57,621 nucleotides of DNA, taken from NCBI GenBank assembly GCA_026706025.1, contig JAPOZO010000021.1:1-57621 (forward strand). Reading direction: 5' to 3'. Below are positions 14,015-25,133 of this stretch, piece after piece. The notes beneath the pieces are model-generated. The model did no database searches. It saw nothing but the letters and a program-made list of their open reading frames with translations, and had not been told where the DNA came from. How positions within the stretch are numbered: position 1 is the stretch's first letter; each line of letters begins with the position of its first letter. A program made the translations under genes and the position numbers. Source of the stretch: Candidatus Poribacteria bacterium. Its GTDB lineage: Bacteria > Poribacteria > WGA-4E > WGA-3G.

Positions 14015-14043
14015 TTGACACCCGCATAAAACCATAGTATAAT
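14015..14043 (+). promoter_or_regulatory. Consensus sigma-70 promoter of the PLD-helicase gene
   Basis: TTGACA (14015-14020), 17-nt spacer, TATAAT (14038-14043): both hexamers are perfect. The predicted start near 14050 gives a leader of about 230 nt that contains all of MITE-B copy 2. Confidence 0.85.
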
Positions 14044-14282: not shown

Positions 14283-17200
14283 ATGTCAAATAAAAACGCA
14301 TCCCTTAAATCTGGTATCCGGGACAACCTCAGCCGAGGAAAAGTCTACGAGTTTTTAGAGCAAGAAATCAAAAACGGCTCAGCACTCTCCATTGTATCCG
14401 CATACTTTACTATCAACGCCTTTGAAGCACTCCAGAAACCATTAAACGAGATAAAAGAACTCCGTTTTTTGTTCGGTGATCCGGATTTCATCAAAAGCCT
14501 TGATCCCACCAACACTGAGAAAAAAGCCTTTAGTATTACGGATACAGGTTTAGAACTTCATAAACAACTTCAGCAGAAACCGATTGCCAAAGCTTGCGCC
14601 GAATGGATAAAAGAAAAGGTTGAAATCCGTTCAACACGAAAATCAAATCTCCTGCACGGGAAAATGTATCATATCGCCAACGACGGTGTTGAAAAGGCGA
14701 TTATGGGCAGCTCCAATTTTACAATGCGCGGCTTAGGCTTGATTCATGAGAGCAGCAACATTGAACTCAACCTTGAGGTGGATAGCGACCGAGATCGCCG
14801 TGACCTGAAAGCGTGGTTCGACGAAATTTGGGATAACGATAAACTCGTTGAAGATGTCAAGAAAAAAGTGATTGCCAAGTTAGAACAGATAGGGAAAGAT
14901 CACGCACCGGAACTCATCTATTACAAAACCCTCTACGAACTCTTCCGGGACGAGATCGAAACCCGAAAAACCAACGACCAAACCCTTGAAGATACACATC
15001 TGTATGATACTAAAGTCTGGGAAACGCTGTACGAATTTCAGAAAGAGGGCGTAAAAAGCGTAATCGCACGTCTGTTGCGTCACAACGGCTGCATCTTGGC
15101 AGACAGTGTGGGGTTAGGAAAAACCTACACAGCACTGGCAGTGATAAAATTCTTTGAGTTACGAAACCAACGTGTCCTTGTGCTATGTCCGAAAAAACTG
15201 CATGGCAATTGGTCACTCTACCCCGTCTACAACTCGCAAGACACCAATCCCTTCCTCGATGACAAGTTCGGTTATACGCTGCTATCGCATACCGACCTTT
15301 CCCGCTACACCGGCGAATCTAACAGTATTAATTTGGAAAATTTCAACTGGCATAATTTTGACCTGATTGTGATTGACGAATCCCACAACTTCCGAAATGA
15401 TACAAAACCCGTCCGTGACTCAGACGGTAAATTTATCCGACACAGTCGCTACACACGGCTCTTGGAAGAAGTTATCAAGGAAGGCACGAAAACAAAAGTG
15501 TTGATGCTGTCAGCGACACCCGTGAATACATCACTCATTGACCTCCGCAACCAAATCTATCTTATGACTGAAAAGCGTGAGGATATCTTCAGCGATAGTC
15601 TCGGGATCAGTAATATTGGTTCACTGCTGCGCCAAGCGCAAAAAGAATTCAAGAAATGGGAAGAAGATAGCGGCGAGAACGGTCAAAGAGAGAAAACGAA
15701 GTTGCTGGAGGCACTCGGTGCCGATTTCTTTCAACTGCTTGGTGGTGTCTCTATTGCTCGCTCCCGACGGCATATTAAGACATTCTACGCTGAAGAGATG
15801 ACACGCATCGGCGAGTTTCCGACACCACAGAAACCCGAAAATTGCCATCCTCCAACAGATTTGACGGGTGAACTCTCCTATAAGGCACTGGCAGACCAGA
15901 TCGGTGAATTCGAGTTAGCCATCTATAGACCTTCCAGTTACGTCATCAGTGAGGCAGCAAAACAGCGACTCGCAAACGAAAAGCAGAGATTCCGTTTCAA
16001 CCAAGCAGACCGTGAACGATTCCTTATCGGCATGATGCAGACCAATTTTCTGAAACGTCTCGAGAGTTCCGCTCACTCACTGTCGGAAACACTTCAACGC
16101 ACCATCGGCAAAATCGACGATATGCTGGAGAAGATTCACCGATACCAACAAAACCCGAATATGCAGAACGCACAAGCCGATGTTTTGCCCGACGACGATG
16201 AAGACGATGAAGAGTTTTTGATCAACCGAGCGCGCAACCCCTATCACCTCCGCGAATTGGATTGTACCCGCTGGAAGAATGACCTTATCAAGGACAAAGA
16301 GACCTTAACCGCTGCATCGGATAACGTTAAAGCTATCACACCGGAAAGGGACGGTAAACTCAAGGCAATTAAAGCACATATTCAGAAGAAGGTACAAAAC
16401 CCCACAACCGACAAAGACGGAAAAATTAATCGCAAGCTGCTGGTTTTCACAACCTTCAAAGATACGGCAGTCTATCTCTATGAAAAACTATCAGACCTTG
16501 CCGATGAATTAAAACTGAACATGGCAATGGTTTCCGGGGACCTGACACAAACCGCCTGTGGACAAAATAACTTCAACGTCATCTTAAACAATTTCGCACC
16601 AAAAGCACGGACTAATATAGATAACGCATCTGACGAAATAGACTTACTCATTGCCACGGACTGCATCTCAGAAGGGCAAAATCTCCAGGATTGTGATACC
16701 ATGCTGAACTATGATATCCACTGGAACCCCGTCCGTATCATCCAACGCTTTGGTCGTATCGACCGAATCGGCAGCCGCAATGCTACAATAAAGATGATTA
16801 ACTACTGGCCCACCGAAGATATGGAAGTCTATCTCCGTTTACAAAGTCGCGTCGCATCCCGTATGGCACTCGCCGATGCAGCCGCAAGCGGCGATGACGA
16901 TCCGTTGAATGAATTCACCTATGAACAGGCACAGATGGAACTCAATTTTCGGGACGCGCAATTGGAGCAGCTTCGCCAAGATGTCCTGGACCTCGACGAC
17001 CTCTCTGATGGTATTGTCATCAGCGACTTTACACTTGATTATTTCTTTGCGCAATTGCTAAAGTATCTCGAAAGAAAAAGAGATGAATTAGAAGCCACAC
17101 CGAAAGGCGCGTATGCCGTCACCTTCAACGAAAACAATCCCACAGAAACCGGTGTCATCTTCTTTCTCCGACAACGCAACATCATCACAGATAAGGAGAA

Positions 17201-17576
17201 AAAGACACCGAGTCCTGTCTATCCATATTACACAGTCTACATCCGCAAAAATGGCGACATCCGTTATGGCTGTGCAAACACCAAACAGGTGTTAGATCTG
17301 TTTGAAGCGTCCGCTATTGGCAAGGACGATGTGTTGTCAGAATTCTGCCTCCAATTCGATCAAGAAACCCAACACGGTGAGAACATGGAAGATTACAACA
17401 AACTCCTGAACGCCGTCATTGCGCACGTCACACGGTCGCATCAAAAGACGCAGGCTAAAAATTTGGGCAGAAGCGGCACGCGCGGTTTCAAACTACCAGC
17501 CGCATCCGAAGCTCCCAGAGACTCCAGCGATTTTGAACTCGTTACATGGCTAATCATCACAACAAGGACTATTTAG
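14283..17576 (+). CDS. PLD-nuclease / SNF2-type helicase fusion, probable restriction component
   Basis: 1097 aa. An N-terminal phospholipase-D-like domain (about 1-190) has one HKD-type motif: HGK at 125, Asp at 134, GSSN at 142-145, as in PLD nucleases that act as dimers. A superfamily 2 helicase of SNF2/HepA type follows: Walker A DSVGLGKT near 274, DESH at 365-368, SATP near 410, and QRFGRIDRIGS near 821. Between the two helicase lobes is a long insert with an acidic run (DDDEDDEEF). The domain order suggests an ATP-driven DNA translocase carrying its own nuclease. Its neighbours, an HTH gene and an Eco57I-type methylase, suggest a restriction-modification or phage-defence role. It does not match the gene set of DISARM (no DrmA/DrmB nearby). 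Family calls are firm; the system role is inferred. Confidence 0.85.
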   Translation: MSNKNASLKSGIRDNLSRGKVYEFLEQEIKNGSALSIVSAYFTINAFEALQKPLNEIKELRFLFGDPDFIKSLDPTNTEKKAFSITDTGLELHKQLQQKPIAKACAEWIKEKVEIRSTRKSNLLHGKMYHIANDGVEKAIMGSSNFTMRGLGLIHESSNIELNLEVDSDRDRRDLKAWFDEIWDNDKLVEDVKKKVIAKLEQIGKDHAPELIYYKTLYELFRDEIETRKTNDQTLEDTHLYDTKVWETLYEFQKEGVKSVIARLLRHNGCILADSVGLGKTYTALAVIKFFELRNQRVLVLCPKKLHGNWSLYPVYNSQDTNPFLDDKFGYTLLSHTDLSRYTGESNSINLENFNWHNFDLIVIDESHNFRNDTKPVRDSDGKFIRHSRYTRLLEEVIKEGTKTKVLMLSATPVNTSLIDLRNQIYLMTEKREDIFSDSLGISNIGSLLRQAQKEFKKWEEDSGENGQREKTKLLEALGADFFQLLGGVSIARSRRHIKTFYAEEMTRIGEFPTPQKPENCHPPTDLTGELSYKALADQIGEFELAIYRPSSYVISEAAKQRLANEKQRFRFNQADRERFLIGMMQTNFLKRLESSAHSLSETLQRTIGKIDDMLEKIHRYQQNPNMQNAQADVLPDDDEDDEEFLINRARNPYHLRELDCTRWKNDLIKDKETLTAASDNVKAITPERDGKLKAIKAHIQKKVQNPTTDKDGKINRKLLVFTTFKDTAVYLYEKLSDLADELKLNMAMVSGDLTQTACGQNNFNVILNNFAPKARTNIDNASDEIDLLIATDCISEGQNLQDCDTMLNYDIHWNPVRIIQRFGRIDRIGSRNATIKMINYWPTEDMEVYLRLQSRVASRMALADAAASGDDDPLNEFTYEQAQMELNFRDAQLEQLRQDVLDLDDLSDGIVISDFTLDYFFAQLLKYLERKRDELEATPKGAYAVTFNENNPTETGVIFFLRQRNIITDKEKKTPSPVYPYYTVYIRKNGDIRYGCANTKQVLDLFEASAIGKDDVLSEFCLQFDQETQHGENMEDYNKLLNAVIAHVTRSHQKTQAKNLGRSGTRGFKLPAASEAPRDSSDFELVTWLIITTRTI

Positions 17577-17614
17577 TTTTAAAAATTCACCTTATATGTG
17601 TCTATATTTTCTTC

Positions 17615-17642
17615 TGTAGGAGCGAGCTGCGCTCGCGATCTT
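17615..17642 (+). repeat. REP-like palindrome, best copy
   Basis: TGTAGGAGCGAGCTGCGCTC then GCGATCTT. The stem GCGAGC/GCTCGC is nearly perfect. It lies 38 bases after the helicase stop and could act as a transcription-stopping or mRNA-end hairpin. Confidence 0.75.
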
Positions 17643-17724
17643 GCGTCGAAAGGTTAACATCTGTCAACCAAAACCAATATCCGAGCCGAAAACTAAATCG
17701 CCCTGTCATCACAACACGACAATC

Positions 17725-17754
17725 TTGACTTTTTATCTTGAGGCATGGTATCAT
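17725..17754 (+). promoter_or_regulatory. Promoter of the small HTH gene
   Basis: TTGACT (17725-17730), 18-nt spacer, TATCAT (17749-17754), preceded by the extended -10 TGG. The ATG is 23 bases further on, with AGAGAGG as ribosome site. Confidence 0.65.
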
Positions 17755-17777
17755 ATTTCAAAAGAGAGGCATAAACA

Positions 17778-18161
17778 ATGAAAATTTATGGAACATGGCA
17801 TGCATTCCTTGTAGAACAACTTAAAGAACAGGATGATGTGAGCGGTTATCTCGATGCAGTCATAGAAGAATATCAGGCCCACGAGAATCTCGCCATAATT
17901 CAGTTGGCACTTCAGTATGTCGTTGAAGCACAGGGCGGAATTTCTGAACTCGTTAAGAAAATAGACATTGAACCACGCCTCCTATCGGAAGTGTTAGATA
18001 GCACGAGAACACCAAAGATTGACACACTTAGAACCGTACTCAGTGCTTTGGGATGCCATCCTTCACTTGCGTCTTTAGAAACTGTCCCGATTACAGTCGC
18101 AACTGACGGATCTGCAGATGCCCCCTTAGATGCCGTAAACCCAAATCATAACCTTGATTAA
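17778..18161 (+). CDS. HTH regulator, addiction-module antidote (HigA/HI1420)-like
   Basis: 127 aa. Residues about 20-95 match the 'putative addiction module antidote' family: a YLDAVIEEYQ helix, a run resembling LALQYVVEAQGGISELVKKI, then the HTH with LLSEVLDSTRTPKIDTLRTV and the closing LSALGCHP. The last 30 residues are low-complexity. Such proteins are usually paired with a RelE-like toxin upstream; none is present here. It lies between the helicase and methylase genes with its own promoter and a terminator after it. It could be a controller protein for the restriction system, or the leftover of a toxin-antitoxin pair. Confidence 0.75.
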   Translation: MKIYGTWHAFLVEQLKEQDDVSGYLDAVIEEYQAHENLAIIQLALQYVVEAQGGISELVKKIDIEPRLLSEVLDSTRTPKIDTLRTVLSALGCHPSLASLETVPITVATDGSADAPLDAVNPNHNLD

Positions 18162-18249
18162 CATCACGTTTCAAGACAGAAAGGAGGGGTACGCGTGAAT
18201 AGGGCAGCGCGAATCGTTAGAACCTATCTCTAAACAATTAAAAATAACA

Positions 18250-18278
18250 GGGGTTGGCACACTGCCACCCCATTTTTT
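18250..18278 (+). terminator. Rho-independent terminator after the HTH gene
   Basis: GGGG(T)TGGCA, loop CAC, TGCCACCCC, then ATTTTTT. It is only 17 bases before the methylase start, so it either separates the HTH transcript from the methylase or attenuates read-through into it. Confidence 0.8.
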
Positions 18279-18294
18279 GTAGGAATACAGCATA

Positions 18295-21200
18295 ATGAAC
18301 AAGGAAGCAATCAAATCTGCGCTCGCAGCAATGTCAACCGGCGATCTTTTAGAAAAATCAAAAGAACTCTTGGCAACAATAGGCTACCGAAGCGAACGCA
18401 CGCTTGAACTCTCCGGCACCGTCCACGACTTTCTTGAAGAATTCCCATCGCTGAACCCGAACACCAGAACCGAACAAGAATTCCGCAAAAACGCCGAATC
18501 CGTGCAAATCGTGTTCCAGTTTACAAGCCACGAAATCGCGGATGACATTCAGCAGACACTTTTCGAGTCAGATGGTTTCGACAAGGGAAATACAGACAGC
18601 TTCCTTTTCTCTGCAGTCGAACTAAAAAACAACAACTATTCCCGAACCAAATACGCCGAATTCACACGAGAAATCAACAAGAGACTGGGCGCGCCGACTG
18701 TCGGACTATTCCGCGTTGCCAACCGTCTAACTATAGGGTTTACCGATCGCCGTCCCCACAAAACTGAAGGGGATCGTGATGTTTTAGGACAGGTTACACT
18801 CATCAAGGACATTCGCTTGGATAATCCCCACCGCGCACATCTTGACATTCTGTCTGAACTCTCATTTGAAGATCGCGTAAACTATATGGATGCCAACAAA
18901 AAAACGAAAAACTTCGACGGTCTACTATCAGCGTGGCTCGCCAAACTGGACACCGAGGAACTCAACAAACAGTTCTATAAAAAACTGTTCGCGTGGTATG
19001 AATGGGCAATAGAGACAGCAATGTTCCCAACAGACGAAAACCGCACTTTACAACCGGAAGAGCATGTCATACGCTTAATCACGCGTCTACTCTTTATCTG
19101 GTTTATCAAGGAAAATGGACTGGTAGCAGATGAATTGTTCAACAAAGCACAAATCCAAGACCTATTGGCAGAGAATGATTTCGACAACGGTGATGCCTAC
19201 TATCGCGCCGTGTTACAAAACCTCTTTTTCGCCACGCTGAACACCGAAATAGACAAGCGAAAGTTCAGCACCGTTGGCTACGCCACAAATCGGGATTTCT
19301 CACGCTATCGCTATAAAGATCAGATGCGCGACCCCGATAAACTGTTAGAGATTTTCGGCAAAACACCCTTCATCAACGGCGGACTGTTCGATTGCTTGGA
19401 TAGCTGGGAAGCGACGGGCAAAGAGAGTTATCGGATAGATTGTTTCTCCGATAATCAGTACCACAAGTTATCCATCCCCAACCACCTCTTTTTTGACACA
19501 CAACAAGGACTCATCCCCCTACTTGAACACTACAAATTCACCGTCGAGGAAAACACACCGATAGAGCAAGAAGTGGCGTTGGACCCCGAACTGCTCGGCA
19601 GAGTGTTTGAAAATCTACTCGCCGCCTATAACCCTGAAACCGGTGCGACGGTGCGAAAACAGACAGGCTCCTACTATACCCCACGCGCTATCGTTGACTA
19701 CATGGTAGAAGAAGCCTTAGTCGCCACGTTATCCCAGAAATGCGACCCAACCGATGACGACACCAAACTGTGGGATGAACGCTTACACTATCTCCTCGAC
19801 TATGCCCAAGCCTTCGACGATGCCAACGAATGGTTTGACGATGCCGAGACAGATGGCATCGTCCGAGCAATTTCTGAACTGAAAATACTGGATCCGGCAG
19901 TAGGTTCCGGCGCATTCCCGATGGGGATGCTCCACAAACTCACGCTTGCACTCCGGCGACTTGATCCAGATAACACCCGATGGGAACAATTACAGAAGGA
20001 ACGCGCCGTCCAACGCACAGAAATCGCCTTTGATACACAAGACGACGAAGCACGCCGTGAAGAACTCGTTGAAATTGACGAAACTTTCAAGCGTTACCGA
20101 GATTCAGACTTCGGGCGCAAGTTATACCTCATCCAAAACAGCATCTTCGGTGTAGACATCCAACCCGTAGCATGCCAGATCGCCAAACTCCGCTTTTTCA
20201 TATCCCTCGCAATTGAGCAGGAACCCGAGCAGAACGCAGAGAATTTCGGTATTAAACCCTTACCGAATTTAGAGACGCGTTTTGTCGCAGCGGATACACT
20301 GATAGGCATAGATTTATCCGAAACAAGGGGATTGTTCCAAGATGATACCGTACAGCAATTGCTAAAAGAGATTGACGGAATTCGTGAAAAGTTTTTTCTT
20401 GCAAATAATCGAACACAAAAACGTAAACTTGAAGAGCAGGAGGAGAAGTGCCGCAAACAATTGGAGAAAGAATTGGAGCGGCAGCGAACAGAATGGATAG
20501 AGAGCCGACAACGAGAAATAGATCAAAAAGTGAACCAACTTCCCACCGCTGAACTGCGTGAACAGTTGCGGGAAAAGGAACAGAAAACCTTTAAAACGCG
20601 TAAGCAGGAATTTGATGCCGAATTTGAAAATGCTCGCAAAATTGTTCGCTGGAAACCATACGACCAGAATGCAAAGACAGATTGGTTTGAACCGGAGCGG
20701 ATGTTTGGCATCAGGGACGGGGTTGATCTGGTACTTGGAAATCCGCCTTATGTCCAATTGCAAAAAGAGAATGGGAGACTTGGAAATCTTTATCAAGACG
20801 CAGGTTTTGAAACCTTTGTCCGCACCGGCGATATTTACTGTTTGTTCTATGAAAAAGCGAACCAACTTTTGAAAAACAATGGACATGCCTGTTTGATTAC
20901 TTCCAACAAATGGATGCGCGCTGGCTACGGTAAAAAGTTGAGAGATTTCTTTGTAACCCTTACCCAACCGATTCAACTGCTGGATATGGGACCAGACGTG
21001 TTTGATGCTACTGTGGATACAAATATCTTGCTGTTCCAAAAAACTGTATCCAATGCTCCTACTGCTTTTGTAGGCGTATCTCTCGGAGCAGATTTTGACA
21101 GACAGACCGACAACATCGCCCGATATTTGAGTGATAATGGCGCAAGTATAGAAATGCCCGCTAAAGGTGAACCGTGGGCGATACTCTCATCTGCTGAACT

Positions 21201-22014
21201 TAACCTGAAACGCAAAATAGAGGATGTCAGCAAACCGCTTAAAGACTGGAATATAAACATCTATCGTGGAATCATAACAGGTTGTAACGAAGCGTTCATC
21301 ATAGACGAAGCAAAACGTGAAGAACTTATAGATCAAGATCCAAAGTCAGCAGAAATCATAAAACCACTTCTGCGTGGACGTGATATTAACCGCTACCATG
21401 CCAAGCAAGCAGGATTATACGTGCTTGCAACTGGTTATGATCTGGATATTCCAAGAAGATATCCAGCAATCTACAAACACCTTGAGACTATAGGGGAACA
21501 GATAGAATTGGGAGAAATAACAGTGAGAGGTAAAGGACTTTTCCATAGAGACGATCAAGGTGAAAATTGGTGGAATCTCAGGGCTTGTGCTTACTACTCC
21601 GAATTTGACAAGAATAAAATCGTATATCCTGATATTTACCGACACCAAAGTTTCACTATAGATACCTCTGCTTCTTACTGTAGTAATACCTGTTATTTTA
21701 TACCTACAGAGGAAACTTGGTTATGCGGTTTGCTCAATTCCAAATCTGTAGAGTGGTATTATTCACGGTTGGCGAACACATTGGGAAGTGGAACTTCTCG
21801 TGGATTCAGTATCTTTATGAAGCAAATCTGTGTTCCTAACATTAACCCCGCTCAAAAAGCCCTTATTACCGATTTTGTCAATAATATCATTGCAACAAAA
21901 GCCGAAAACCCAGACGCTGACACCACAGACTTGGAAAATGAGATTGATAAACTGGTCTATGAATTGTATAATTTAACGGAAGATGAGATTGCGATTGTGG
22001 AGGGGAGTGTCTGA
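18295..22014 (+). CDS. Eco57I-type DNA adenine methylase, probable type II restriction-modification protein
   Basis: 1239 aa. The N-terminal 200 or so residues include VELKNNNYSRTKYAEFTREI, which may be a nuclease-like fold but is not clearly assigned. The SAM-binding motif DPAVGSGAFPMG starts at 533, followed by IFGVDIQPVACQIAKLRFF. The catalytic NPPY of N6-adenine methylases is at 816-819 (LVLGNPPYVQLQ). A charged coiled coil (about 690-780) interrupts the methylase domain. The C-terminal third has a TaqI-type specificity domain (GIITGCNEAFIID, IKPLLRGRDINRY). It should methylate a DNA target to protect self DNA; the target sequence cannot be predicted. The ATG is 17 bases after a terminator and no clear promoter of its own is seen between. 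Confidence 0.9.
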   Translation: MNKEAIKSALAAMSTGDLLEKSKELLATIGYRSERTLELSGTVHDFLEEFPSLNPNTRTEQEFRKNAESVQIVFQFTSHEIADDIQQTLFESDGFDKGNTDSFLFSAVELKNNNYSRTKYAEFTREINKRLGAPTVGLFRVANRLTIGFTDRRPHKTEGDRDVLGQVTLIKDIRLDNPHRAHLDILSELSFEDRVNYMDANKKTKNFDGLLSAWLAKLDTEELNKQFYKKLFAWYEWAIETAMFPTDENRTLQPEEHVIRLITRLLFIWFIKENGLVADELFNKAQIQDLLAENDFDNGDAYYRAVLQNLFFATLNTEIDKRKFSTVGYATNRDFSRYRYKDQMRDPDKLLEIFGKTPFINGGLFDCLDSWEATGKESYRIDCFSDNQYHKLSIPNHLFFDTQQGLIPLLEHYKFTVEENTPIEQEVALDPELLGRVFENLLAAYNPETGATVRKQTGSYYTPRAIVDYMVEEALVATLSQKCDPTDDDTKLWDERLHYLLDYAQAFDDANEWFDDAETDGIVRAISELKILDPAVGSGAFPMGMLHKLTLALRRLDPDNTRWEQLQKERAVQRTEIAFDTQDDEARREELVEIDETFKRYRDSDFGRKLYLIQNSIFGVDIQPVACQIAKLRFFISLAIEQEPEQNAENFGIKPLPNLETRFVAADTLIGIDLSETRGLFQDDTVQQLLKEIDGIREKFFLANNRTQKRKLEEQEEKCRKQLEKELERQRTEWIESRQREIDQKVNQLPTAELREQLREKEQKTFKTRKQEFDAEFENARKIVRWKPYDQNAKTDWFEPERMFGIRDGVDLVLGNPPYVQLQKENGRLGNLYQDAGFETFVRTGDIYCLFYEKANQLLKNNGHACLITSNKWMRAGYGKKLRDFFVTLTQPIQLLDMGPDVFDATVDTNILLFQKTVSNAPTAFVGVSLGADFDRQTDNIARYLSDNGASIEMPAKGEPWAILSSAELNLKRKIEDVSKPLKDWNINIYRGIITGCNEAFIIDEAKREELIDQDPKSAEIIKPLLRGRDINRYHAKQAGLYVLATGYDLDIPRRYPAIYKHLETIGEQIELGEITVRGKGLFHRDDQGENWWNLRACAYYSEFDKNKIVYPDIYRHQSFTIDTSASYCSNTCYFIPTEETWLCGLLNSKSVEWYYSRLANTLGSGTSRGFSIFMKQICVPNINPAQKALITDFVNNIIATKAENPDADTTDLENEIDKLVYELYNLTEDEIAIVEGSV

Positions 22015-22367
22015 ATCGCGGATTTTTGGATATGTTCCCTCCCCTAACTAACTTTCAACTCTGACAAATACTCTCCCATTGACTTCTCCTATTTATAATT
22101 ACCTTGCCAGTTTGGCAGAGTAAGTCAAATTGGCAGAGGAAAAGGTGAATAAAACCCTTTAAATACCTGTTTTTGAGTAGTTTCTATTGGCACGAAAATT
22201 GCTTTGTTGTCTATGTGTACTACTCGTGAAATTTAGTTTTGCGAAAAGCAATGCAAATTTGCCACCTATAGTTTTAAATTTGTTGACTGTCTTAGGTAAT
22301 TGTCCGCTTTTCGTAGGAAAGTAGAAATGAGATTATTGGAGAAATATTGATACGGAGGGACTCTAAA
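22015..22367. other. Gene-free stretch before the TIR operon
   Basis: 353 bp. I see no coding frame, no clear terminator hairpin and no strong promoter. A short direct repeat (TTGGCAGAG) occurs twice near 22114-22140. The region is A+T-rich toward the TIR gene, where the promoter should lie. Confidence 0.5.
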
Positions 22368-23033
22368 ATGGCTAGAAAAATTTTTGTTTCCTATAAACAT
22401 TCTGATGATAGCGTTGAAAACCTTAACGGTGAAACAACTGCCCGTGCTTACGTTGATGAACTAATTGAACTATTTGAAGATGATGAAATCTATAAAGGGG
22501 AAGGTGATGAAGATTTAAGTGAATTCAAAGATGAAACGATTGAAACACATCTGAAAGATAAAATATACGATAGTAGTTTAACGCTTGTCCTAATTTCACC
22601 AAATATGAAAGACGAATCTGAAAATGAGTCTGACCAATGGATTCCTTGGGAAATATCATATTCTTTGAAAGAAATCACACGGAATGATCGGACAAGCCAA
22701 ACCAATGGTATGTTAGCAGTCGTCTTACCGGACGAAGATTCATCATATAGTTATTTTCTTGAAGATGACACATGCTCTGCCTGCAATTGCAGAATCCTAC
22801 ACACGAGTACACTGTTTCAGATACTACGCGATAATATGTTTAATATCAAGGAACCAACATATAGTGATTGCCCTAAACATCTACCCCAGACTGTATACGA
22901 AGGTCATTCTTCTTATATTTATTCAGTTAAATGGTGCGATTTTATCGGGGATACGGATAAATACCTTGATACAGCGGAAGAAATAAGAGATAACAAAGAT
23001 GATTATGACATCACAAAAATAGTGAAAGATTAA
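22368..23033 (+). CDS. TIR-like domain protein 1 (Thoeris ThsB/DUF1863-type)
   Basis: 221 aa. It starts with [12 protein letters not shown], the first strand and BB-loop region of TIR folds. A long acidic stretch follows, then [13 protein letters not shown] and [13 protein letters not shown]. The WIPWE segment (residues 91-95) supplies the W-x-x-x-E glutamate that corresponds to the catalytic Glu of TIR NADases. Bacterial TIR proteins of this type make or cleave NAD-derived signals in anti-phage immunity. Residues about 130-221 hold two Cys pairs (CSACNC) and no domain I recognise. The ATG at 22368 has GGAGGGA 8 bases upstream. First gene of a three-gene set; spacing to the next is 44 bases. 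Activity is inferred. Confidence 0.8.
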
Positions 23034-23077
23034 GCTATAATCGGATATACCTGCCCTTGACGAAGGACGGTAAATTG

Positions 23078-23494
23078 ATGAATAACGCGGAGAGAATCGC
23101 GAAGCATTTGGAAATGACCCAGTCTGTTATAGACCGTATCGGAAGGAACAGTTTTCAGTTAAAAGGCTGGAGTATGACAATCCTTGTTGCAGCAAAGGTT
23201 CTAATTACGAGAACTGATCTACCAAGTCCATTTTTGATCCTAGCACTTATTTTTCCCATCATAGGATTTTGGTTACTTGATGGATACTTTATCAGACAGG
23301 AGCGGTTGCTTCGACACATATATGATGAGGTCAGAAATCAATCTGATACTAACTTTGAGATGGATATTAACAAGCACACGAACAAATCGAACTGTAGGTG
23401 GAGATCCATTTTTTCTTCAATTGTACTTGGTATTTTTTATGGTGTAGAGGCAATCTTTACCATTGTTGTATTTATAATAACTTATTTCTGTTAA
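23078..23494 (+). CDS. Three-TM membrane protein between two TIR genes (candidate effector)
   Basis: 138 aa. After a helical N-terminus (AERIAKHLEMTQSVIDRIGR) come hydrophobic segments at about 30-45 and 53-70, then a charged region (DGYFIRQERLLRHIYDEVRN). A third membrane segment closes the protein (SSIVLGIFYGVEAIFTIVVF). I recognise the GWSMTIL ... GFWLLDGYFIRQERL pattern as a small membrane family often found beside TIR-like genes, without a defined function. Its layout resembles 2TM/3TM effectors of nucleotide-signal immune systems. The ATG at 23078 has AAGGA 10 bases upstream. It lies 14 bases before the second TIR gene, so they form an operon. Confidence 0.8.
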   Translation: MNNAERIAKHLEMTQSVIDRIGRNSFQLKGWSMTILVAAKVLITRTDLPSPFLILALIFPIIGFWLLDGYFIRQERLLRHIYDEVRNQSDTNFEMDINKHTNKSNCRWRSIFSSIVLGIFYGVEAIFTIVVFIITYFC

Positions 23495-23508
23495 ATTTTG
23501 GAGGTAGT

Positions 23509-24000
23509 ATGCGACACGTATTTTTTAGTTTTGATTGGGATGATGTCTGGCGCGTCAACCAAGTCCGACACAGTTGGGTCGCAAAGGGAAGTTATACTGC
23601 AGCGGGTTTTGTTGACAGTGCCCAAATTGAAACGCTGAAAAGAAATACTGATCTTGCCATCAAACGATGGATAGGTAAGCAGATGGATGGTACATCTGTG
23701 ACTTGTGTCTTGATTGGCAGTCAAACTGCTAATAGCAGATGGGTAAAATACGAAATTGAGCAAAGCATTGAAAAGGGAAATGGGTTGCTTGGTGTGTATA
23801 TCCATAATGTAAAAGATAGGCACGGTTGGACATCTACTAAGGGAGCAAGCCCTTTCAGGCAACCCCCATTTAACCTTACACCTACCACCAACACTAATTT
23901 GGTTTATCCTTGTTGCTCATATTACGATTGGGTCAATGACAATGGGCGTGACAACCTTGGCAGTTGGATAGAAAAAGCTGCTCAGCAGGCTGGTAGATAG
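23509..24000 (+). CDS. TIR-like domain protein 2 (Thoeris ThsB/DUF1863-type)
   Basis: 163 aa, essentially one domain. RHVFFSFDWDDVWRVNQVRH opens the fold. Then LAIKRWIGKQMDGTSVTCVL, IGSQTANSRWVKYEIEQSIE and GLLGVYIHNVKDRHG follow, a pattern typical of the ThsB-like TIR family. WVKYE at 78-82 carries the presumed catalytic Glu. In Thoeris the TIR protein senses phage and makes a cyclic ADP-ribose-type signal for a separate effector; here the adjacent membrane protein could be that effector. The ATG has GGAGG 5-9 bases upstream. It is clearly different in sequence from TIR 1, so this is not a recent duplication. Confidence 0.88.
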   Translation: MRHVFFSFDWDDVWRVNQVRHSWVAKGSYTAAGFVDSAQIETLKRNTDLAIKRWIGKQMDGTSVTCVLIGSQTANSRWVKYEIEQSIEKGNGLLGVYIHNVKDRHGWTSTKGASPFRQPPFNLTPTTNTNLVYPCCSYYDWVNDNGRDNLGSWIEKAAQQAGR

Positions 24001-24019
24001 CACATCCCGCTGTTTTTAA

Positions 24020-24260
24020 TCCGCGTCCTCCGTGTCCTCCGCGAAAATCCGCGATTCAGACGAACCCACAATGCAGCCCTCCAATGCTTATTCCGTTCAA
24101 GCCGCGTAATCAACCATTGATCTTGTTTCGTGAAAGTAAATTTTGGATGCACAAAGAACAAAATCCGCGTCATCCGCGATTCAGAAAAGGCGCAACGAAT
24201 TGCGCAACTACAAACAGAAACACTCTTAAAATCCGCGTAATCTATTCAGTCCGTGGTAAT
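24020..24260 (+). repeat. ATCCGCG-type dispersed repeats
   Basis: Several copies of AATCCGCGTCCTCCGTGTCC, AATCCGCGATTCAGA and variants (about 24020, 24166, 24228). The same units occur at 26461 and 27461 after the TPR genes. They fill most of the 359-bp gap 24001-24359. Confidence 0.7.
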
Positions 24261-24283
24261 CTGCGATTCGTATAAAATAGCAA

Positions 24284-24312
24284 TTGACAAACACACCCCT
24301 AAATTGTATAAT
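24284..24312 (+). promoter_or_regulatory. Perfect consensus sigma-70 promoter of the FRG gene
   Basis: TTGACA (24284-24289), 17-nt spacer, TATAAT (24307-24312). The transcript should start near 24319, leaving about 40 nt before the ATG at 24360. It separates the FRG-TPR genes from the TIR operon. Confidence 0.9.
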
Positions 24313-24359
24313 CTGATTAAGGATTGTGGTTGAAGGAACATAGAATCAAGAAATATCGC

Positions 24360-25133
24360 ATGAACACACCGGTAGAAATATCCAGTTTAGCAGACTACAT
24401 CAACCAAATAGACACGATAACCGATCCCGAAAAAAGCTACCTCTATCGTGGTCAGGAAAACGAGACATGGCGTATAACTAGTAGTGCCTATCGTCGCTTG
24501 GTAAGCAGTTCCGAGGATTTGGGACGGGAAGACGATCTTCTGCCTTATCCGTTGCGCGATTTGTACCAAAATTATCTCCTTGAAATTATTGATGAGATTA
24601 AACTGAGGTATCCATCTACATATAGAGACCTGTCCGCTTTAGAGTGCATGGCGCATTTACAGCATAATCGTGTTGCTACAGGCCTAATTGATTTTACCTT
24701 TGCTCCGTTAGTCGCTCTCTGGTTCGCGTGCACTAGTGAGAACATAAATGGCAAGGTTATTGTGCTGGAAAACAATAGTGAGAAAATTGAAGAGATAACA
24801 ACTATTGAACAGCTTCAACAGGATTTGGCAGTATTTTTTCCGATTGATCAAGAAGATTGGTATCTATGGTCTCCGACGCTGGACAGTCAAATAGTGGAAA
24901 CCCAACGGTTGATTATGCAGCAATCGGTGTTCCTATTCGGCTTACCGGAAATAGATACAGAAATGATCACACAAGAAATTACAATCCGTAGCGGTGACAA
25001 AGCAGATATCAAAACGGCGTTAGAAAAAATGGGAATCTCGGAAAAAACCTTATTTTCCGACTTACTCGGTTTTTTTGAAAGAAATAATGCTACACAACCT
25101 TATAACTTATCAGTTGACGCACTTGACTCCTGA
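24360..25133 (+). CDS. FRG-domain protein
   Basis: 257 aa. The FRG signature is visible: YLYRGQENETWRITSSAYRR (about 27-46) and the downstream LQHNRVATGLIDFTFAPLVA (about 102-121) followed by LWFACTS. FRG proteins are a widespread family in mobile and defence-rich regions, often proposed as RNA- or NAD-acting toxins; no activity is proven. The C-terminal 100 residues are unassigned. The start is uncertain: ATG 24360 is chosen, though it lacks a strong ribosome site. TTG at 24324 lies almost at the predicted transcript start. It ends 11 bases before the first TPR gene, so the two are probably one operon. Confidence 0.85.
   Translation: MNTPVEISSLADYINQIDTITDPEKSYLYRGQENETWRITSSAYRRLVSSSEDLGREDDLLPYPLRDLYQNYLLEIIDEIKLRYPSTYRDLSALECMAHLQHNRVATGLIDFTFAPLVALWFACTSENINGKVIVLENNSEKIEEITTIEQLQQDLAVFFPIDQEDWYLWSPTLDSQIVETQRLIMQQSVFLFGLPEIDTEMITQEITIRSGDKADIKTALEKMGISEKTLFSDLLGFFERNNATQPYNLSVDALDS

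Follow-up and report, generated by a model that had tools for sequence, protein, structure and literature searches.

A PLD-nuclease/SNF2 helicase and a gamma-class methylase as a putative two-gene restriction-modification system in a Candidatus Poribacteria genome

Results

The window analyzed here, 57,621 nucleotides in length, is contig C21 of a Candidatus Poribacteria metagenome-assembled genome (MAG; GenBank assembly GCA_026706025.1, contig JAPOZO010000021.1; 6.27 Mb in 103 contigs), whose host is a sponge-symbiont bacterium. It carries three open reading frames (ORFs) on the plus strand, encoding a PLD-nuclease/SNF2-helicase (P0001), a small helix-turn-helix (HTH) protein (P0002) and a gamma-class N6-adenine methylase (P0003; Table 1). 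Our analysis indicates that the helicase and the methylase likely form an ATP-dependent, sequence-specific restriction-modification (R-M) system of two subunits, a two-gene analogue of type ISP, and that together they probably destroy unmarked foreign DNA. This reading is based on the domains, the intact motifs, the linkage of the two genes, the covariation of the helicase with the N-terminal half of the methylase, the swapping of target-recognition domains (TRDs), and the retention of the HKD nuclease site only in the company of a gamma-class methylase. From these we infer complex formation, methylation, translocation, cleavage and phage defense by the pair.

A first-pass annotation of the window had described the locus as a PLD-nuclease/SNF2 helicase, an HTH gene and an Eco57I-type methylase with a TaqI-type specificity domain. 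The coordinates and the methylase length of 1239 aa were both reproduced, the alignments placed H125, K127, GSSN 142-145 and NPPY 816-819 where it had located them, and both enzyme identities were borne out by Pfam. PLDc_2 (8.6e-10), ResIII/SNF2-rel_dom and Helicase_C (5.8e-14) were detected in P0001, and the PADLOC profile C3a139 ‘HKD+Snf2’ matched residues 33-1055 at 1.3e-105; the system meant by this label was not found in the literature searched. In P0003, the domains detected were Eco57I (PF07669, 7.4e-34), N6_Mtase and TaqI_C (PF12950, 8.9e-15, residues 1023-1167). One full-length copy of each of the two large genes was found in this genome, and the closest named homologues of P0001 belong to Candidatus Poribacteria MAGs, one of them at 95% identity.

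Linkage of the genes, whose consistent absence had been set beforehand as one of two findings that would refute the module, was frequent in other genomes. In 97 related genomes, a helicase match was detected in 80 and a methylase match in 81. Among the matches listed, a P0003-type gene lay on the same strand and at most 5 kb downstream of 52 of 67 helicase homologues (long and at least 47% identical, compared with 112 methylase rows, second pieces of one methylase being left out), with gaps of 18-4070 bp that did not exceed 50 bp in 18 of the 52 pairs. Twelve of the 15 unlinked helicases reach a contig end within about 1.2 kb; methylase pieces were found directly downstream of the helicase of G062:C53, a methylase fragment upstream of that of G057:C15, and for G059:C10 the methylase was not among the matches listed. 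When loci were searched by tblastn, a methylase was detected downstream of the helicase in 25 of 39, including loci from Chlorobiota, Chloroflexota, Cyanobacteria, Spirochaetota (Spirochaetaceae) and Atribacterota; the remaining loci contained type III genes, met an early contig end or were broken. Four distant pairs were also found on named plasmids: those of Parabacteroides distasonis and Lactococcus have the two genes side by side, and in those of Nostoc and Deinococcus the methylase comes first and other genes intervene. All four plasmid helicases possess a PLDc_2 domain and an intact H.K..GS.N motif. Since the linkage recurs in relatives, a chance association of the genes is excluded.

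The pairwise distances of 21 linked pairs were then compared. Helicase distances correlated with those of methylase residues 1-728, the N-half (Mantel r 0.75, P 2e-4), and no correlation was observed with those of the TRD (r 0.15, P 0.13). Ten TRD classes were present among these pairs, and in L015 and L041 helicases that are 94% identical accompany TRDs that are 17% identical. In the 17 pairs whose helicase is at least 70% identical to that of the window, the correlation with the N-half was r 0.51 (P 2e-4), and the median identities were 74% for the helicase, 71% for the N-half and 26% for the TRD. The N-half of the methylase co-diverges with the helicase while the TRDs are swapped, and such turnover is expected of a recognition subunit. 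The correlation with the N-half is also fed by the common ancestry of the hosts, and the co-divergence counts, like the HKD counts given below, mix near relatives.

A nuclease of its own, as expected of a type IIG enzyme, was also sought in the methylase. A PD-(D/E)xK-like ELK is present near the N-terminus of P0003 (residues 109-111), with KLR, DLT, ELT, SLN and ELN in its place in L017, L029, L036, L038 and L048, and no conserved ELK was found in the N-termini of 22 helicase-linked and 20 non-linked methylases; this candidate was dropped. Residues 1-332, modeled with AlphaFold (pLDDT 73), had zero Foldseek matches at E <= 0.001, and further structure comparison of the same part returned mixed folds at Z of about 3-5, some of them Holliday-junction resolvases. 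Because the methylase N-terminus lacks a conserved nuclease motif, the PLD domain is the only recognizable nuclease of the module. A charged, coiled-coil-like insert was observed at about residues 731-800 of P0003 (window 20485-20694), common only to L016 and L040 in the methylase alignment; the TRD class of L040 is different.

These results bear on the idea of two independent defenses sharing a neighborhood, with P0003 acting as an autonomous type IIG enzyme and the PLD-helicase acting by itself. P0003 was indeed labeled a type IIG enzyme by PADLOC (3.6e-127), and P0003-type methylases also occur alone, no helicase ORF being present in 20 of 20 regions (L056-L075) that had been chosen for lacking one. 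However, the conserved order and strand, the gaps of 18-50 bp in 18 of the 52 pairs listed, the covariation of the helicase with the N-half and the lack of a conserved nuclease motif in the methylase N-terminus all argue against independence, which we regard as quite unlikely. The helicase-less methylases are probably orphan enzymes kept vertically; several of them lie in the same housekeeping neighborhood across genomes (L067/L070, L068/L069, L071/L074).

The HKD site was evaluated in 122 full-length helicases from 202 loci (ORFs no shorter than 900 aa, hidden Markov model score above 400; broken copies and the distant plasmid pairs L118-L121 left out), which were sorted by partner into 32 methylase-linked, 74 type III-linked and 16 without a classed partner. 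Inactive catalytic residues in close homologues had been named as the other refuting finding; H125, K127, G142-S143 and N145 were kept in 32 of 32 methylase-linked proteins, and neither check refuted the module. The HKD test was passed by none of the 74 type III-linked ones, and among the 16 others, located mostly at contig ends, 9 were intact and 7 were not. D274 and K280 of Walker A were kept in all rows, and the motor residues checked were kept throughout, one row having E for D365. Clustering at 70% yielded 13 HKD-intact clusters with a gamma-class methylase versus 30 HKD-lost clusters with type III genes, and no mixed cluster. HKD status therefore tracks the partner without exception in 106 linked proteins, which offers a direct test of motor sharing between restriction types.

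The type III-linked helicases, at about 36-40% identity, precede DUF4391, type III Mod and Res genes and were found in Clostridia, Muribaculaceae, many plasmids and contigs of viral collections. The order HTH, HKD-less SNF2 helicase, DUF4391, Mod and Res (L051-L055, L199-L201) is an extended type III arrangement that is widespread on plasmids. In a tree built without the PLD part from 49 rows (one row per 70% cluster, the window row and the four distant plasmid rows), HKD status and partner each changed once; the two groups had modest support (65-74), and the distant rows had long branches. Since the distant plasmid pairs are HKD-intact, the comparison suggests that the HKD was lost after the helicase had joined type III genes, which have Res. 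The helicase seems to retain its cutting site only in the absence of another nuclease. Motor motifs persist in the type III-linked clade in spite of the HKD loss, so the motor would have some nuclease-independent role.

Such a role would also suit a blocking mechanism of the BREX/DISARM kind, in which the methylase marks self, translocation or remodeling by the SNF2 motor halts phage replication, and cleavage by the PLD domain is accessory. The SNF2 family profiles nearest to P0001 are those of the PLD anti-phage helicase (158 bits) and DrmD (149 bits), both far under their cut-offs, and the DISARM PLD protein DrmC is dispensable (PMC9142583). The strict conservation of the HKD beside the methylase speaks against this mechanism. 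DUF499 (PF04465; control positive in 1 of 14) and the DrmB-type DUF1998/MZB domain PF09369 (control positive in 8 of 14) are absent from the whole genome, and PglZ matches occur only on two other contigs. We consider blocking unlikely. Neither DrmA nor DrmB was found among the 10 local ORFs scanned with PADLOC, in which the helicase itself only weakly cross-matched a DrmA profile, so the earlier statement that the locus is not DISARM holds as far as tested. Neither PglZ nor BrxC is at the locus (BrxC was not searched genome-wide). The two PglZ-domain proteins, encoded by open frames 552 and 589 aa long on contigs C95 and C14 (L203, L204), mark possible BREX-like loci.

The three-gene set proposed in the first-pass annotation stood in part: the helicase-methylase pair is conserved, but the HTH gene is not a conserved third member. 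No recognizable gene was found between the two in 14 of 26 helicase-methylase loci. An HI1419-type toxin followed by a P0002-type antitoxin was present in 3 (the full toxin in L013, L014 and L024), the antitoxin alone in 5, the window included, and RhuM, ORF6N, an AAA ATPase with DUF4276, and a GxxExxY protein in one locus each. The ATPase (with a weak match to MADS MAD3) and DUF4276 occupy positions 11249-13253 of L028. P0002 matched the HI1420-type antitoxin family below the cut-offs (Pfam 23.3 versus 27 bits; NCBIfam 26.8 versus 53.7), and is not a core part of the system; it appears to be what is left of an embedded HI1419/HI1420 toxin-antitoxin pair, namely the antitoxin, after deletion of the toxin here. 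A role as restriction control (C) protein was rejected as first choice, given that its relatives are preceded by a RelE-type toxin. The orphan antitoxin may now regulate the methylase.

In members of the genus, the module repeatedly adjoins the gluconolactonase-like gene that also flanks it in the window. At 11 of 18 sites examined, this flanking gene is present but the module side contains no helicase for 2.9 kb or more, and only helicase remnants were found there in G011, G016 and G018; the module is polymorphic at a fixed site. These remnants, the deleted toxin and the existence of solitary methylases would all be compatible with an operon that no longer restricts in this genome, in which the methylase serves as an orphan epigenetic enzyme while the other parts decay. 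Both large ORFs are nevertheless full length in the window and all tested motifs intact, which makes decay very unlikely here. In L080 (5606-6619) and L081 (59-1240), from two genomes, the first ~127 helicase residues are fused in frame to the C-terminal ~200-270, without the motor, and L082 has a split version of this fusion; an antitoxin gene lies behind it in L080 and L082. The fusions of L080 and L081 may be remnants or reduced proteins with a role of their own. Short PLD-only ORFs were rejected as a split nuclease: L077 and L078 end at contig ends, and L076, L079 and L094 look like remnants.

Discussion

The proposed system would operate as follows. P0003, the putative modification/specificity (M/S) subunit, would use its TRD to recognize an asymmetric site and would methylate one adenine; at an unmethylated site it would engage P0001, the putative restriction (R) subunit, whose SNF2/SF2 motor would be loaded and translocate along double-stranded DNA. 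The PLD domain would then cut at a distance and, having one HKD half-site, would be expected to dimerize as in SauUSI.

Foldseek with the predicted model of P0001 lists the PLD ATP-dependent endonuclease SauUSI (E 2.4e-10), a PLD-type nuclease with a solved structure. It is a type IV enzyme in which a helicase-like ATPase translocates and cleavage occurs as a dimer held by the nuclease domains (PMC7913695). This likeness raises the alternative of a methylation-dependent enzyme, a PLD helicase attacking modified DNA and a methylase employed otherwise. SauUSI differs in that it carries a TRD for methylated DNA itself and is not partnered by a methylase; no modified-base reader domain was recognizable in P0001 with Pfam, the helicase is tied to a methylase, and cutting the methylated sites of its own partner would presumably be suicidal. 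A type IV-like function is therefore hardly credible.

Several points weigh against the two-subunit R-M reading, apart from the solitary methylases mentioned above. The P0001 model is poor (pLDDT 64), and the SauUSI match partly reflects the common SF2 core. The correlation of HKD status with partner appears to represent one evolutionary event, so that the contrast is sharp but the switch is single. In the 17 closer pairs a weak correlation is also seen between TRD and helicase (r 0.23, P 0.02), and the decoupling of helicase and TRD is partial there. Finally, frequent loss of the system is evident from its degraded copies.

The architecture has already been published as a putative R-M pair: in 2018, orf33-orf34 of the Lactococcus lactis plasmid pLd8 were described as a protein with PLD, SNF2 and Helicase_C domains beside a ‘type IIG’ N6-methylase with TaqI_C and no nuclease domain (PMC6098607). 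Its authors suggested PLD as the cutter and pointed out the likeness to class I DISARM domains, and orf34 is labeled type IIG by REBASE; the section on this pair does not mention partner switching, HKD loss or TRD swapping (PMC6098607). No methylation motif for the Lactococcus pair is given in the relevant part of PMC6458302. The pLd8 pair is likened here by description, not sequence; the plasmid homologue L119 (pUCCL635A) is distant, its methylase having 31% identity.

Among the known classes, the type ISP enzymes LlaGI and LlaBIII also combine a nuclease, an SF2 motor, a gamma-class methylase and a TRD in one system (PMC4872093, PMC3874165). Their gamma-class methylase with a C-terminal TaqI-like TRD has its counterpart here (PF07669, PF12950), but LlaGI and LlaBIII are single polypeptides with an Mrr nuclease, whereas two separate ORFs with a third between and a PLD nuclease were found in the window, which makes the pair ISP-like and not ISP. 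Type ISP is further characterized by ATP-driven translocation and by cleavage on collision between sites in head-to-head orientation. The BREX-related Type-2 BR systems (Hma relatives) have an HKD nuclease N-terminal to an SNF2 helicase, plus an N6-methylase, but also a DUF499 ATPase and DUF3780 (PMC12839542). DUF3780 was not found among the Pfam-scanned neighbors (no genome-wide search was made). The type III-linked systems share a homologous helicase of the same gene size placed before the methylase, but have lost the HKD and have DUF4391, Mod and Res as partners; type III Mod (N6_N4_Mtase) and Res are not among the neighbors in the window, and only distant helicase relatives sit with them. 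The earlier claim that this is not a standard type I system also survived as far as tested, with no HsdS (Methylase_S) among the scanned neighbors and the TRD fused to the methylase. By the features tested, the pair fits no definition of type I, ISP, III, DISARM, BREX or Hma, and it recurs nonetheless in several phyla and on plasmids.

A broader proposal, which we hold tentatively and rate a little short of an even chance, is that this family of helicases serves as a transferable restriction motor with changing methylase partners and a PLD domain that is active beside a gamma-class methylase with TRD, and dead in a protein still serving as motor beside type III genes having Res. A wide group free of DUF499, a partner-dependent loss of the HKD and a slot for toxin-antitoxin genes were not found in the literature searched. 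If the proposal is true, many enzymes called type IIG would be nuclease-less M/S halves of two-gene ATP-dependent systems. The pairs would then constitute a split-ISP class of their own, in which TRDs are swapped freely and a cargo slot collects toxin-antitoxin, RhuM, ORF6N or ATPase/DUF4276 genes. Profile-based ‘type IIG’ calls may miss the true nuclease next door.

Other Features of the Locus

Table 1. Positions of the genes, motifs and putative regulatory elements of the module in the window.
Feature	Position	Strand	Basis
Promoter-like TTGACA-17-TATAAT, ~240 nt before helicase start	14015..14043	+	12/12 consensus; weak evidence
PLD-nuclease/SNF2-helicase, putative restriction (R) subunit P0001, 1097 aa	14283..17576	+	Pfam, PADLOC, alignment
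Codons of HKD-type active site H125-x-K127 ... GSSN 142-145	14655..14717	+	Alignments
Walker A DSVGLGKT (274-281) of helicase	15102..15125	+	Invariant in 20 aligned rows
Promoter-like TTGACT-18-TATCAT directly 5' of HTH gene, kept in several relatives	17725..17754	+	Promoter scan, alignment
Last codons of putative deleted HI1419-type toxin gene (..RHKQ stop), overlapping HTH start	17765..17781	+	Alignment; frame from 17620 to ERHKQ
Putative HI1420-type antitoxin (HTH), without toxin here, P0002, 127 aa	17778..18161	+	Sub-threshold family matches; toxin upstream in relatives
Terminator-like hairpin + T6 between HTH and methylase	18249..18278	+	-16.8 kcal/mol, z -2.37; single occurrence in genome
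Gamma-class N6-adenine methylase + C-terminal TaqI-type specificity domain, putative M/S subunit P0003, 1239 aa	18295..22014	+	Pfam, alignment
S-adenosylmethionine-binding motif DPAVGSGAF (533-541)	19891..19917	+	DP..GSGAF invariant in 18 aligned rows
Catalytic NPPY (816-819)	20740..20751	+	Invariant in 18 aligned rows
Variable target-recognition region, about residues 820-1190	20752..21864	+	Alignment, pair distances

The promoter-like site upstream of the helicase is weak, as 13 such sites were detected in the region versus 13.0 in shuffles, with no excess. The hairpin and T-run between the HTH gene and the methylase end 16 nt before the methylase start.

A ThsB/TIR-like gene (22347-23033) directly downstream of P0003 and a PDC-M50A/PDC-M50B pair (23057-23494 and 23398-24000) were reported by PADLOC as candidate defense genes, and are followed by an FRG-domain gene (24324-25133) and TPR genes. 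The stretch from 22347 to 25133 is a defense island.

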